Below are positions 43,137 through 64,000 of a stretch of 64,000 nucleotides of DNA, one piece after another (the first letter of the stretch is position 1; every line of letters begins with the position of its first letter). The notes under the pieces are model-generated. The model had not been told where the DNA came from, did not search any database, and saw only the letters and a program-made list of their open reading frames with translations. Made by a program: the position numbers and the translations under genes. Source of the stretch: Fereydounia khargensis (lineage: Eukaryota; Basidiomycota; Ustilaginomycetes; Urocystidales; Fereydouniaceae); assembly GCA_026413255.1 (NCBI GenBank), contig JAOCZO010000013.1, positions 287,124-351,123 on the forward strand, in the 5' to 3' direction.

Positions 43137-43357
43137 AAGAAATGATAACCGTGGCCTCTGTCGCTTGAAAAGCAATGTTGCGGCATCCTGGTCGATTTGT
43201 ATGAGATTATCGTACAGTATACTGTTACTATTTGACAAATTGATGTTTTGTCTTGCATGCTTTTGTAATCAGCTGTACACAGGAAGCCTGAAAGGTACTG
43301 TAAAGCAAAGGAAAAGTGCTTCGCGCTTATGATCCATAACGTACTGTATCAGTATCA
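43137..43357. other. 3' flank of the Thr-rich gene
   Basis: It contains ATCGTACAGTATACTGTTAC (43208-43227) and GTACTGTATCAGTATCAG next to the repeat element. Nothing else is seen. Confidence 0.4.
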
Positions 43358-43607
43358 GTTGAAGGGTCGAGTAGCTGGAATTGATTGCAGTGGTGATGAG
43401 CTTCGGTACGGCACAGTACTGTATCGTACAGGATTAGGATTTGATTCACTGCGCGTGCTAAGGTGGCAGGGTGTGCATGCAAACATGCTTCCTTGCAGGC
43501 ATTGGGGTGTTTACGCAAACACGCGCGCTTGCTGGCGCTGAGCGGTTCGCGCAAACAGCCTCAATTGCAGGCACTGCACTGTTTGCGCAAACGCTCTTCA
43601 TTTGTAT
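43358..43607 (+). repeat. MITE-like repeat element, copy 1 (diverged), with 36-bp array
   Basis: The left end GTTGAAGGGTCGAGTAGC and the next 80 bp match the element at 49561. After this lie three complete 36-bp units (43469, 43505, 43541) and a partial fourth (43577). Each has a near-palindrome related to TGTTTGCGCAAACA followed by about 16 variable bases ending in a GCAGGCAYTG-type block. The right end (ACGCTCTTCATTTG) is a decayed form of the inverted repeat ACCCTTCAACTA. This right end overlaps the last codons of the secreted-protein gene at 43598-44185. Confidence 0.65.
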
Positions 43608-47810: not shown

Positions 47811-49266
47811 TTAGACAGCTTGGGTATGTATGGCAGACTCGAGCCCAACGAGAAGGCCAATCACATTCATGTCACCAAAGGGTGAGATCTGAGAGGCAAG
47901 CATGCCGCAAGTTCCATCGTCAAAATCGGCCCACCCTGCGCCAAAAAGAAAGCGAAGGTCAGTCAAACTTCTGCTTTCTTCAGTCAAGAGTGCGTGAGTG
48001 TATTCACAGTAGCAATTGGCAATACCACACCAGTACAGGGACTGTTGGAGTCCGCAGGAAGGAGGGTTAGTATCGGCAGATGAACTGATATATTGAAGCG
48101 AAAGGCGCGAAAAGGGAGACTCACGTTGGCGCTGCGCTGGAAGAGGGGGTGCTTGGCTGGTGAACCGAAGGTACGTTGTGTTGGAGGTCAGTGGTTTAAA
48201 GCGCAAGCCGAGATGGGAGCAGCAAGAAGTGGAGAATTCTGGGAGAATTCTGAGAGGACATACTGTTGACTTTCAGCCCACCAAAAGCCCAGTTCTTTGG
48301 CAGGCCCGGAGCACCAAGCTCGACAATCGGATTGGTAAGTTCGGGGATAGCATCGGGTAAATCCTTGGTGAGATCTTGTTGAAGTTTGCCTGTAAGCTGA
48401 TCTTTCTTGAGCAGCTCAACAGAATCAGGCTTGAGTATCTGGTTACCAGTGACTGGATGAGTTCCCTTGTTGACAAGCGCGGCAAGAACCTGGCAATAGT
48501 CACGCGGGTTGGCAAACAGGCCGGCGCCACCATACTGAACCTCAACTTTGCTGTCCTGCAGGGGCATCCAGTGTGGGATTCCCGAGATCGATCCATCGGA
48601 AGTCGCACGGAAGTTCATGCCAGCCAGCCTGGGAAGGAGGCCAGCTGACTCGGGGAGGAAGCTCATGTTCTTGGCTCCCACTGGCTCGAGGATGTTCTCT
48701 TGCATGTAGTCATTAAGCGATTGGCCAGATACGCGCTCAATAAGCTGACCGACCCAGTCAATACCTGTGGCATAATGCCACTCGCTGCCAGGCTCGGCAA
48801 CGAGGGGAGCAGTGATGGAAGACTTGCTGCAGGCAAATGAGGAGAGGCTCTTGCTGTCAAACCACTTTTTGACCTCGCGGTTGAAAAAAGGGTAGCCCTG
48901 GCCGCAGGTGTGAGTGATCAGATTCCAGACGGTTGGCTTGTGCTTGGGAGCTGATCCGTCCATAAGCTTGGCATCTGCCAGTTCGGAGCAATACTTGCTG
49001 GCATCATCGTCAAGGGAGACTTTGCCTCGTTCCACAAGCTGAAGGAGGGCAATGGCGGTGAGGAGTTTTGTGCAGCTAGCGATCCAGAAGATGGCATCCT
49101 TGGGCATGGGCTCGTCCTTTCCAGCCTGGCGAACACCTCCGGCGGCGTAGGCAAGCTCCCTGCCTTGGCGGTCAGTGGCATAAAAGACGCAGCCAGGGAC
49201 GTTATTGACATCCTTTGTGGCCTCGTCAATCTGTGCTTGGGTGCTCTGCTGAAGTTGGCTTGACAT
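47811..49266 (-). CDS. Serine hydrolase of the beta-lactamase/LovD-type family (class C fold)
   Basis: Four exons (49266-48264, 48156-48125, 48041-48008, 47935-47811) give 397 aa. The catalytic S-x-x-K is SCTK at residues 64-67; the Tyr motif is YATG at about 165; a late WCGIANCYWW block takes the place of the KTG/HTG triad. The spliced C-terminus (WADFDDGTCGMLASQISPFG) closes the family fold, and without the two small exons this block would be lost. Fungal members are esterases or acyltransferases (LovD-like) more often than true lactamases. It lacks a signal peptide, so it is cytosolic. A TTTATATA box (49325-49332) lies about 60 bp upstream. Its promoter region holds the repeat element at 49561. 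Confidence 0.85.
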
Positions 49267-49324
49267 GGCGGTTTGTGTACTTGGGCCAGAGGTTTGGGCG
49301 TGTGTTCCCTGACACCCCTCTGAG

Positions 49325-49332
49325 TATATAAA
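49325..49332 (-). promoter_or_regulatory. TATA box of the serine hydrolase gene
   Basis: TTTATATA (minus strand) lies about 60 bp before the ATG at 49266. Confidence 0.5.
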
Positions 49333-49560
49333 CAATGGTTCTCCCCGCTCTCTCCGTAAGTACAGTACTGTAGGCTTGCGGACAGAGAGGATGCAGCACA
49401 TATTCAAGTCATGTGCCCATGCTCTCAAGAAAAATATCCCCGCCTGCATAACATCTGTCTTTGCGTGTGGAGGTTCGGGCGGCTTGCGCACCCAAAACAG
49501 TCACGCGGGGTATCTAGAGAGACCCTGGACGCACGGGGCAGCAGCAGTCTTGTTCGATAC
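49333..49560. other. Upstream region of the serine hydrolase gene
   Basis: It contains AGTACAGTACTGTAGG at 49361-49376. Nothing else was noticed. Confidence 0.3.
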
Positions 49561-49821
49561 TAGTTGAAGGGTCGACTAGCTGGAATTGATTGCAGTGGTG
49601 ATGAGCTACGGTGCAGTACAGTACAGTGCAGGATTTTGATTTGAATCGAGGGTGCGCGCGCGAGCACGCTGATCCATGGACTGGAGGGTGCGCGCGCGAG
49701 CACGCTGATCCATGGACTGGAGGGTGCGCGCGCGGACACGTTGGGAGCGCTCCGCCAGGGTGCGCGCACGAACACGTCGGGCAGGGCCAAGAAGGGTGCG
49801 CGTGCGAACACCCTTCAACTA
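49561..49821 (+). mobile_element. MITE-like element with 12-bp terminal inverted repeats and internal 36-bp array, copy 2 (best copy)
   Basis: The element starts TAGTTGAAGGGT (49561-49572) and ends ACCCTTCAACTA (49810-49821), a perfect 12-bp inverted repeat whose outer TA could be the target-site duplication of Tc1/mariner-type insertion. A leader of about 85 bp follows, then units of exactly 36 bp at 49650, 49686, 49722, 49758 and 49794. The repeat is GGGTGCGCGCGCGAGCACG (19 bp, near-palindromic). The 17-bp remainders are identical in units 1 and 2 but different in 3 and 4. The last unit runs into the right terminal repeat. There is no transposase inside, so it would be non-autonomous. Confidence 0.72.
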
Positions 49822-51237
49822 TGCTCTTCATAGCTGGGAAACTACTTGGCATTGGAGTGTACTGTACTCGACTCAAGTATGATCTTTTGCCTTCCCATAC
49901 TCCCGGTCCCATTGTCCTTTGCTGCCCACTTCAGCCGCCATTGTATTGTATGTTGTACGCGGAAAAGGATCTAGCCAGCACTTCACGGGCGCACAAATGT
50001 TTGGGGAATTTGCGGGGCCCTGCCCAGCCTGAGCTTGCAACGAGCGAGAATCAGGCCGTAACTTGCTCCGAGATTGCTGCGGGCTGCCAAGCTGGTCTCG
50101 AAGGTTGACACTGCCTTCACCGCGCACGACTCAATTGTCTTAGTGGCGCGCCGAGAACCAGCCACGTCACCGCTCAGACTTTCACATCAGACGACTGCAA
50201 GAGGCTGCGAACGTGTGATCCAGAAAGGCATGGAACAGGGGGCTCATTTGAGAGGTCTAGTATGGTAGTGCAGCATAAGCTGGCCAAACCGTGCAAGTTT
50301 GTTCACTTGAGTCTATGACAGTCCAACATGCCAATCGAATGATACTGTACCGTGACTGCAATATGTGGGAACAGGCGACTCGATAGTTGCAAGCCGCTCA
50401 CCAGTCTTGTCTGCACGCAACGCATTACGCAAAGTAGGTTCGGATCATGGACAGTGGCTTCGCATGGCTTCAGACCAAATTTGAACAGCGATGACTGAAT
50501 TGTTTCCGCAGGAGCAAGTCGCGATTTGGAGCGTTTCTGAGCGCCAATCACAAAACCAGTGGCTGTTCCAGCCTCTACAGCCGCAGAACGTTACAGTAGC
50601 TTCGGTACTGTATTTCACCGGGAAAATCCCATTGTCTTATTACGCCAGTCTGCTGATTGTTCAAGGGTCGTTCAAGTGGCGCTCTTTTACGCAGTCCGTA
50701 CCGATCAAGGCCGAGCCGAGGACCGCAGCAAGAACGGAGGTCAGAATCAAAAAGGCATTCGACTGCGTAAAGTTACTGACTACCACTCAAAGCTAGCGTG
50801 CCGTCCGAAACTAACATGCTGTCCGAAGCTAGGAACGCCACAGCTGTCTCGGACACGGAGGAGCAGCACCATTTCCTGAGCATGCCATTGCAATCAGCTG
50901 ACCTTTAGGGTCACGCATCAGTACTCTGCGTCGATCACCTCTCTTAGGCTCTACCAAAGGAACATACTGACCAATCATTTTCCCTTTGACTAGGCTGTTT
51001 GCGCTTTTGGGAGAATCGTCGATTGCAGCATCTGATGGAAAGGAGAAGCATATAAGCAGGCCGATCTAGGCTCAGGTTCCTTCTCTTCTCCCCCATCGTT
51101 CTTCTCTCTCAATTCTTTCACATTCAAAACTGACATTCGCAAGCAATCAAGTGAGCTCAACTTGTTCAAACATGCTCTCAATCTACTCTGCCCTGGTTAC
51201 TGACATGGTCCACCATTACTAAAACCTGATACAGCAA
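49822..51237. other. 1.4-kb gene-poor stretch
   Basis: No supported gene. TACTGTA-type motifs occur at 49858, 50343 and 50606. The right end carries a TATAAG box at 51051-51056 and a 5' UTR intron (GTGAGC at 51151, acceptor ACAG at 51234) for the next gene. Confidence 0.4.
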
Positions 51238-62485: not shown

Positions 62486-62555
62486 TAGTTGAAGGGTCAA
62501 CTAGCTTGGATCGATTGCGGTGGTGGTGAAGGGCTACAGTAGATAGGTTGTGCAA
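62486..62555 (+). repeat. Leader of the MITE-like element, copy 3 (truncated)
   Basis: TAGTTGAAGGGTC followed by ACTAGCTTGGATCGATTGC and GTGGTGGTGAAGGGCTAC match the first 60-70 bases of the element at 49561. Similarity is lost after about 62550 and no right end or 36-bp array follows. Confidence 0.6.
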
Positions 62556-62583
62556 CGCGTCTCAAAAGCAGCTCAGGATCAGT

Positions 62584-62640
62584 GTTGAGGGGTCGACTAG
62601 CTGGAATTTGATCGCAGTGGTGAGCTACAGTACAGTCCCT
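62584..62640 (+). repeat. Leader of the MITE-like element, copy 4 (truncated)
   Basis: GTTGAGGGGTCGACTAGCTG, then GAATTTGATCGCAGTGGTGA and GCTACAGTACAG repeat the leader again, 98 bp after the start of copy 3 and in the same orientation. No right terminal repeat could be found towards the telomere. Confidence 0.6.
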
Positions 62641-62895: not shown

Positions 62896-63155
62896 CAGTC
62901 CCAAGAGTCCCAACAGTCCCAACAGTCCCAAGAGTCCCAAGGGTCCCAAGGCGAGTCCCAAGCCCAGTCCCAAGGCGAGTCCCAAGCCCAGTCCCAAGCC
63001 CAGTCCCAAGGCAAGTCCCAAGCCCAGTCCCAAGGCGAGTCCCAAGGCCAGTCTCAAGGCGAGTCCCAAGGCCAGTCTCAAGGCGAGTCCCAAGGCCAGT
63101 CTCAAGGCGAGTCCCAAGGCCTCGCAAGTCCCAAGCTCTCGCTGCAAGTCCCAAG
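62896..63155 (+). repeat. Subtelomeric minisatellite, AGTCCCAAGGCG units of 12 bp
   Basis: The array starts with 9-bp units (CCCAACAGT, CCCAAGAGT) and changes to about fifteen 12-bp units, AGTCCCAAGGCG or AGTCCCAAGCCC, in places alternating with AGTCTCAAGGCG to form 24-bp higher-order units. It ends in two imperfect copies (CAAGTCCCAAG). Its 12-bp unit keeps every frame open, so the long open frames on both strands are not evidence of a gene. Confidence 0.85.
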
Positions 63156-63910: not shown

Positions 63911-64000
63911 TTAGGGTTAGGGTTTAGGGTTTAGGGTTAGGGTTAGGGTTAGGGTTAGGGTTAGGGTTAGGGTTAGGGTTAGGGTTAGGGTTAGGGTTAG
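63911..64000 (+). repeat. Telomere, (TTAGGG)n
   Basis: About fifteen TTAGGG repeats fill the last 90 bases. Two TTTAGGG variants lie within the first 25 bases, at the junction. The G-rich strand reads 5'-3' towards the right end, as for a true right chromosome end. Confidence 0.97.

Follow-up and report, generated by a model that had tools for sequence, protein, structure and literature searches.

Inverted repeats enclosing an array of near-palindromic blocks, at exactly 36-bp intervals, raise two questions about a short segment of the Fereydounia khargensis genome: is the segment a mobile element, and why would a mobile element carry such an array? The segment lies in the window, by which we mean the whole stretch of 64,000 nucleotides that was analysed. 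The window forms the right-hand end of contig C13 and closes in TTAGGG repeats; the genome measures 10.46 Mb. The best matches from named species to an NDUFA9-like protein of the window come from Ustilaginomycotina: Pseudozyma hubeiensis at 80%, Thecaphora frezii at 77% and Violaceomyces palustris at 76%.

E1 and its genomic relatives

Inspection of the window sequence placed TAGTTGAAGGGT at 49561-49572; positions 49810-49821 are its exact complement. In between, near-palindromic blocks start at 49650, 49686, 49722, 49758 and 49794, in steps of 36, 36, 36 and 36 bp, which confirmed the five tandem units of exact 36-bp period described in the original prediction. Units 1 and 2 had been called alike down to their variable segment, and they are indeed identical over the complete 36 bp. 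TRF also reported the array with a period of 36. With up to three mismatches allowed, the block pattern matched the window eight times (both strands), every time inside this array, against 0.12 matches expected, and it occurred nine times in the whole genome against none for the reversed control. When the 261-bp segment was used as a query, at least 27 partial matches were obtained in its own genome, the segment itself included. A 15-base head pattern with at most one mismatch was found in at least 20 places against one for the reversed control, and a looser 14-base pattern in at least 26 places against five; all genome match counts for the family are lower bounds. Because of these genome matches, and because the block and head patterns exceed their controls, the array and inverted repeats of the window copy (E1) are not a product of chance.

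The terminal inverted repeat had been described as perfect over 12 bp. It is present at both ends, but what the other copies share is the inverted repeat AGTTGAAGGGT/ACCCTTCAACT; the T and A outside it belong to the flank, so that 11 bp are mobile. The flanks ATACT and ATGCT form a 5-bp duplication with one mismatch, and the mobile unit is therefore the 259 bp from 49562 to 49820 (Table 1). Judged from the list of frames rather than from family searches, the reading frames of E1 merely run through the array. E1 sits upstream of a minus-strand frame of 431 aa (48196-49491), beta-lactamase-like by eye, whose 5' end is 70 bp away.

Table 1. Window coordinates of E1, its parts and further family members
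Feature	Position	Strand	Basis
Mobile element E1, MITE-like, 259 bp, without convincing gene	49562..49820	+	sequence, genome matches, flanks
Left terminal inverted repeat AGTTGAAGGGT; 12 bp if flanking T at 49561 is counted	49562..49572	+	
Right terminal inverted repeat ACCCTTCAACT; 12 bp if flanking A at 49821 is counted	49810..49820	-	
Left flank ATACT, degenerate 5-bp target-site duplication, 4/5 matching	49557..49561	.	
Right flank ATGCT, partner of left-flank ATACT	49821..49825	.	
Conserved head, common to aligned body types; fades past ~46-52 bp	49562..49607	+	15 heads aligned
Array unit 1: 19-bp near-palindrome and 17-bp spacer	49650..49685	+	
Array unit 2, same sequence as unit 1	49686..49721	+	
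Array unit 3; own palindrome GGAGCGCTCC within spacer	49722..49757	+	
Array unit 4	49758..49793	+	
Array unit 5, truncated; dyad extends into right terminal inverted repeat	49794..49820	+	
Second window member E15; units of GTTTGCGCAAAC type with a lag of 36; flanked by GTATC on either side	43357..43603	+	
Further head copy near telomere; matching tail not recognised	62487..62535	+	
Degenerate head ahead of AGTCCCAAG-rich region; matching tail not recognised	62583..62635	+	

Queries taken from other bodies gave mostly places that had already been found, and a hand count puts the family at about 25 loci. Copies measure 144-328 bp, or 401 bp with a nested copy, and nesting of copies within one another was seen on C12, C4 and C36. 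E3 and E4 share 97.2% identity at unlinked loci with differing target duplications. Alignment of 15 heads revealed that the first 46-52 positions are conserved across body types, after which the bodies diverge. The opposite end has only the 8-11-bp inverted repeat in common, and the copies are asymmetric in this respect. The right end of E15 is decayed and was placed with the flank in view. Paired ends were seen in further copies, so that E1 is not the only one to possess them, and units in tandem are found elsewhere as well. Being short and non-coding, with terminal inverted repeats, a duplication of fixed length and dispersed copies with common ends, the family has the properties by which a MITE is recognised, and the earlier description of a MITE-like element with an internal near-palindromic array stands.

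No match was found for a 22-base head pattern in viral contigs or for a 23-base head pattern in prokaryote genomes. ARAGORN gave a single tRNA-like match, of unclear anticodon, in 25 loci, and insertion beside tRNA genes is not supported. By hand count (the size of C32 missing), 14 of the 25 family loci are no more than 25 kb away from a contig end, a bias with a binomial p of 1e-5 to 2e-4 if an estimated 17-22% of the genome is taken to lie so close. A 9-12-bp AGTCCCAAG minisatellite (window 62897-63142 and 63911-64000) directly follows degenerate family heads and is under 1 kb away from the TTAGGG telomere.

Target-site duplications and the mobilising enzyme

Exact 5-bp duplications flank 13 of the 19 copies whose ends were placed, in each case by hand, as against 3 of 342 mismatched left-right pairs. 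Exact identity over 2, 3, 4, 7, 8 or 9 bp was found in none of the 19, and over 6 bp in one (E14, in which the terminal T has seemingly been lost). The duplications read GGTTT, GCATT, GTTTG, GATGT, GTCGA, CCCGC, GTTTC, GATTC, GAGGC, GATAC, GGCTG, GTATC and GTTTC; G comes first in 12 and C last in 7 of these 13, a tendency towards GNNNC. In the six copies without an exact duplication, the flanks agree at four of five positions in E1 and E16in, three in E18, two in E14 and E20, and one in E5. Besides that of E15, the 12 other duplications were recovered by an unselected pairing of end motifs that kept identical 5-mers. This pairing gave 14 rows, among which C13:294162 (1121 bp) was dropped, its ends being unlike those of the family, and the C6 row is E14 with an alternative end. 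Given 5-bp duplications in 13 of 19 copies, the family is a MITE whose mover is probably a transposase making a 5-bp staggered cut.

The original prediction had taken the terminal TA to suggest Tc1/mariner mobilisation. A Tc1/mariner-type MITE with a TA target duplication would account for the T and A that flank the AGTTGAAGGGT ends in the window copy, but the base before the head is C, G or A, not T, in 13 of 20 head matches, and exact 2-bp duplications number 0 of 19 where exactly 5 bp are duplicated in 13 of 19. The TA of E1 is a coincidence, the T being the last base and the A the first base of the ATACT/ATGCT duplication. A Tc1/mariner identity is thus ruled out by the exact 5-bp duplications and retains next to no probability. 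LTR retrotransposons likewise make 5-bp duplications, and these, together with the short terminal inverted repeats, could be read as the mark of solo LTRs. We regard such an origin as highly improbable, as the ends are AG..CT rather than TG..CA, the bodies differ in sequence, and a paired copy enclosing an internal region was not seen among the copies inspected.

Canonical hAT elements with an 8-bp target-site duplication do not fit, as no copy of the 19 shows identity over 8 bp. Mutator-like (MULE) elements, whose target-site duplications measure 8-10 bp, do not fit either, none of the 19 showing identity over 8 or 9 bp. Helitrons possess neither target-site duplications nor terminal inverted repeats and were set aside since the family has both. 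In the parts of the account available, hAT5 elements are given 5-bp duplications and members of CMCT (CACTA/EnSpm-Mirage-Chapaev-Transib) duplications of 2 to 5 bp, with CMCT ends of CA..TG in most cases (PMC12730594). As far as that account goes, the 5-bp duplication of the family is like that of hAT5 and falls within the CMCT range. Unlike the mostly CA..TG ends of CMCT, those of the family are AG..CT outside the duplication, and by these termini the family does not fit the CMCT clade/Transib.

A search of the genome for the hAT dimerisation domain and for MULE yielded no transposase, which counts against the best explanation. The hAT dimerisation domain had no genome match, a weak result in that control genomes were silent too, and MULE transposase had none either, the control being positive in 4 of 14 genomes. 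One head, at C35:9099, adjoins three genes, and this orphan cluster spans 2278-9099 of L071 (C35). Its frames include one of 425 aa, whose Tet_JBP match stays below threshold, and one of 359 aa, for which the homology search run returned nothing. The Tet_JBP match is weak (E 0.02, 14.6 bits against a cut-off of 34.9) and is the sole one in the genome (E 0.04). The orphan protein (L071 7767-8843) is single-copy in the genome and gave no match among 2402 candidates at E 0.001. The third gene gave no Pfam family at E 0.1 for its longest frame and one homologue at 45% (P0121). Single-sequence structure predictions were too poor to use, with a mean pLDDT of 32.8 for the orphan and 34.3 for the protein with the Tet_JBP match. 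Because a second end with matching flank was not found in L071, we do not claim the cluster as an autonomous element; nor was a transposase recognised in it. Transposons with TET/JBP genes are reported, in the parts of the account available, from Pucciniomycetes, Agaricomycetes and Pezizomycetes (PMC12730594), and the C35 match is too weak to add Ustilaginomycotina as a further host.

Period and dyad symmetry of the bodies

Directly visible in the copies are the following: 1) inverted repeats of 8-11 bp; 2) a one-sided head of ~50 bp; 3) 5-bp duplications; 4) dispersal; and 5) nesting. The body is an array of ~36-bp units, placed in most copies around near-palindromes. A body was defined as a copy minus its 55-base head, and 20 copies with a head and a cuttable body were compared, E17, in which no tail was recognised, being cut at 240 bp and E19 joined across the nested E3; headless pieces (C23:117716, C11:57476 and C6:529958) were omitted, as were heads for which no body or tail could be recognised. 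When lags of 18-79 were scanned, the best self-similarity lag was 35-37 bp in 17 of the 20, the exceptions being E6 (41, with 36 second), E14 (41) and E18 (40). Sixteen bodies scored above all of their 200 dinucleotide shuffles, and the score was reached by one shuffle in E10 and in E19, by two in E18 and by 14 in E20. Among 423 tiles from the rest of the window, 21 had a lag score of at least 12; two of these were at lag 34-38, and one of the two lies inside the family member at 43357-43603.

Clustering divided the 20 bodies into 7 groups when the similarity threshold was 16 and into 8 when it was 20, and every threshold-20 cluster includes a member with a best lag of 35-37. At a threshold of 13, which is the largest of 60 null values, the bodies merge into two groups, so that judged by this similarity a remote common descent is possible. 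E1 (259 bp) and E2 (187 bp) are a net 72 bp apart, equal to two units, with 96.2% identity in aligned bases. The array of E3/E4 is inverted relative to the head, scoring 42-44 against E1/E2 as the reverse complement and 23-26 in forward orientation. These array changes would be accounted for by units slipping against each other and by inversion at dyads. Slippage had been proposed before, and the idea fits both the whole-unit length difference between E1 and E2 and the identical neighbouring units; the slippage step itself is uncertain.

Under a mismatch-tolerant dyad score, on which the excess depends and whose thresholds were chosen after the strict-palindrome result, the 20 bodies together scored 247.6, about five times the shuffles (mean 51.4 and maximum 106.4 in 200 shuffles). 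Per bp, the score was 0.081 in the bodies and 0.0116 in 240 tiles from the first 48 kb of the window. Copy by copy, 14 of 20 scores were reached by five or fewer of 200 shuffles. The signal was much weaker for strict palindromes (arms of at least 6, no mismatch), none being present in 7 of 16 copies, in a count for which the ends of E5, E14 and E15 were slightly off. The dyad excess is absent in E3, E4, E8, E18 and E20, and E19 is without any dyad, which counts against the best explanation. The dyads vary by copy: GTGCGCGCGCGAGCAC in E1, GTTTGCGCAAAC in E6 and E15, CACCCGCCGTGGCGGGTG in E10 and E17, TCGCAGCCTCAGGCTGCGA in E9, GTCCAGCTGGAC in E12 and CGACTCTGGAGTCG in E16in.

Units of the same copy agreed at 538 of 738 positions in the cores (0.73) and at 254 of 505 in the spacers (0.50), a count over 41 unit pairs from 13 copies that leaves out one identical pair (in E1) and somewhat favours the core, as unit centres were set by the dyads. 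For E1, with the identical pair again left out, core identity was 0.86 and spacer identity 0.33. Spacers are conserved above cores in E16in, however, and there is no difference in E15 and little or none in E2, results that speak against the best explanation. Covariation was calculated on cores picked by hand. For type A/B (26 cores), the percentage paired was 74.5 against 70.1, exceeding all 500 shuffles, and the covariation score of 0.217 was reached by none of 500. Neither the count of pairs with two-sided change nor that of pair types was above shuffles (460 and 495 of 500), and sliding the partners by -2 columns gave a covariation of 0.273, above 0.217. In type C (16 cores) and type D (15 cores), pairing and covariation were not above shuffles. 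As it fails in two of three unit types, we do not accept covariation as proof of selection on the dyads. Maintenance of the dyads is suggested by these comparisons.

We consider it likely that E1 is a copy of a low-copy, non-autonomous cut-and-paste MITE, a reading in which we include its presumed mover, the slippage and the dimer sites. A DDE-type transposase from elsewhere would recognise the ends and head and cut with a 5-bp stagger. Slippage during replication, together with template switching at the palindromes, might duplicate, remove and invert units. The dyad and its spacing would be kept because each unit is a candidate binding site of a dimeric, transposon-linked DNA-binding protein, and different body types may have drifted to different dyads. 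Its main rival, to which we give about an even chance, is a MITE whose array has no function. One ancestral minisatellite would be expanded, contracted and flipped by slippage and hairpin-templated repair, with the 36-bp period inherited and the near-palindromes upheld by quasi-palindrome correction. The identity of units 1 and 2, the length difference of two units and the inverted array are consistent with such a history, as are covariation in types C and D no higher than in shuffles and the merging of the 20 bodies into two groups at the loosest threshold, which allows common descent. It is harder to reconcile with cores conserved above spacers overall, with type A/B covariation above shuffles and with 7-8 body clusters at the stricter thresholds despite a common lag.

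A more far-reaching proposal, which we hold to be rather doubtful, is that the family keeps its body geometry (a dyad every ~35-37 bp) while the dyad sequence is exchanged among copies with the same ends and head. If this were true, a host or element protein would read the spacing and the two-fold or cruciform/hairpin shape instead of the sequence; alternatively, the bodies would be interchangeable cassettes, each with the sites of a different DNA-binding protein. A further reading, in which transcription of the body would yield a series of short RNA hairpins with a small-RNA or structural role, seems improbable. Both strands of E1 do fold better than 200 shuffles (z of -3.4 and -4.9), as do two of five 150-base pieces of other copies (z below -3). 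However, the other three reach only a z between -0.8 and -2.3, the predicted minimum pairs units with each other rather than forming one hairpin per unit, and an Rfam match at gathering scores was absent in the eight loci searched. Near-palindromic tandem repeats can be expected to fold in this way, and such folding does not speak for an RNA function.

Relation to known repeat-bearing elements

What usually defines a MITE family is a single body sequence shrunk from a parent. The present family is ordinary as a MITE; what is unusual is a 36-bp dyad ladder kept through dissimilar bodies. Here the ends and head are fixed, and the palindrome-array body changes its sequence but hardly its period. 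In CACTA/En-Spm and hAT MITEs, short repeated transposase-binding sites lie near the ends, some in both orientations, and these subterminal repeats are conserved within each family because one transposase reads them. By contrast, the repeated dyad of this family differs between copies with the same ends.

In the parts of the account available, pDv/36TR of Drosophila virilis is a dispersed mobile element with internal 36-bp tandem repeats and direct terminal repeats, and its array size varies among copies (PMC6922343). As far as it is described there, the likeness is one of layout: 36-bp units of variable copy number within a mobile element. Unlike pDv with its direct terminal repeats, the family has short inverted repeats, 5-bp duplications and units that differ among copies, and the available parts of the pDv account mention neither dyad symmetry nor differing units at one period (PMC6922343). 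The short interrupted repeat cassettes (SIRCs) of Arabidopsis, of which 3050 are reported, ~57% of them without palindromes in the parts available (PMC10342631), resemble the family in that direct repeats alternate with diverse sequence within a MITE, as in E1 (core 0.86, spacer 0.33). A common head or end is not described for SIRCs in those parts, whereas we find one family with fixed ends and head and interchangeable dyad arrays of near-constant period. In the literature searched, part of it available as excerpts and with subscription journals and Repbase outside its scope, we did not find such a family described. Set beside its nearest precedents among tandem repeats borne by transposable elements (pDv, SIRC), the family has as its new feature an apparently conserved spacing with exchangeable palindromes.

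With these copies as a natural series, one can ask whether selection acts on the structure of transposon bodies, and the same series bears on the birth of tandem repeats and satellites inside mobile elements. Their GNNNC 5-bp duplications define a fungal family whose transposase is yet to be named. At the start of contig C35 (L071 1-250, C35:1-250), a 37-bp unit that contains a TTGGCCCTAAGGCCAG dyad occurs in 6.8 copies, with no head recognised; this repeat is perhaps an array of the family's kind grown into a satellite. The motif ACGCGT, the MCB motif known from S-phase promoters, reaches 1.69 per kb over the 20 copies, compared with 0.09 per kb for the window, and is present in 6 of the 20, of several body types (C12:140121, C35:47405 and C11:362650, for example).
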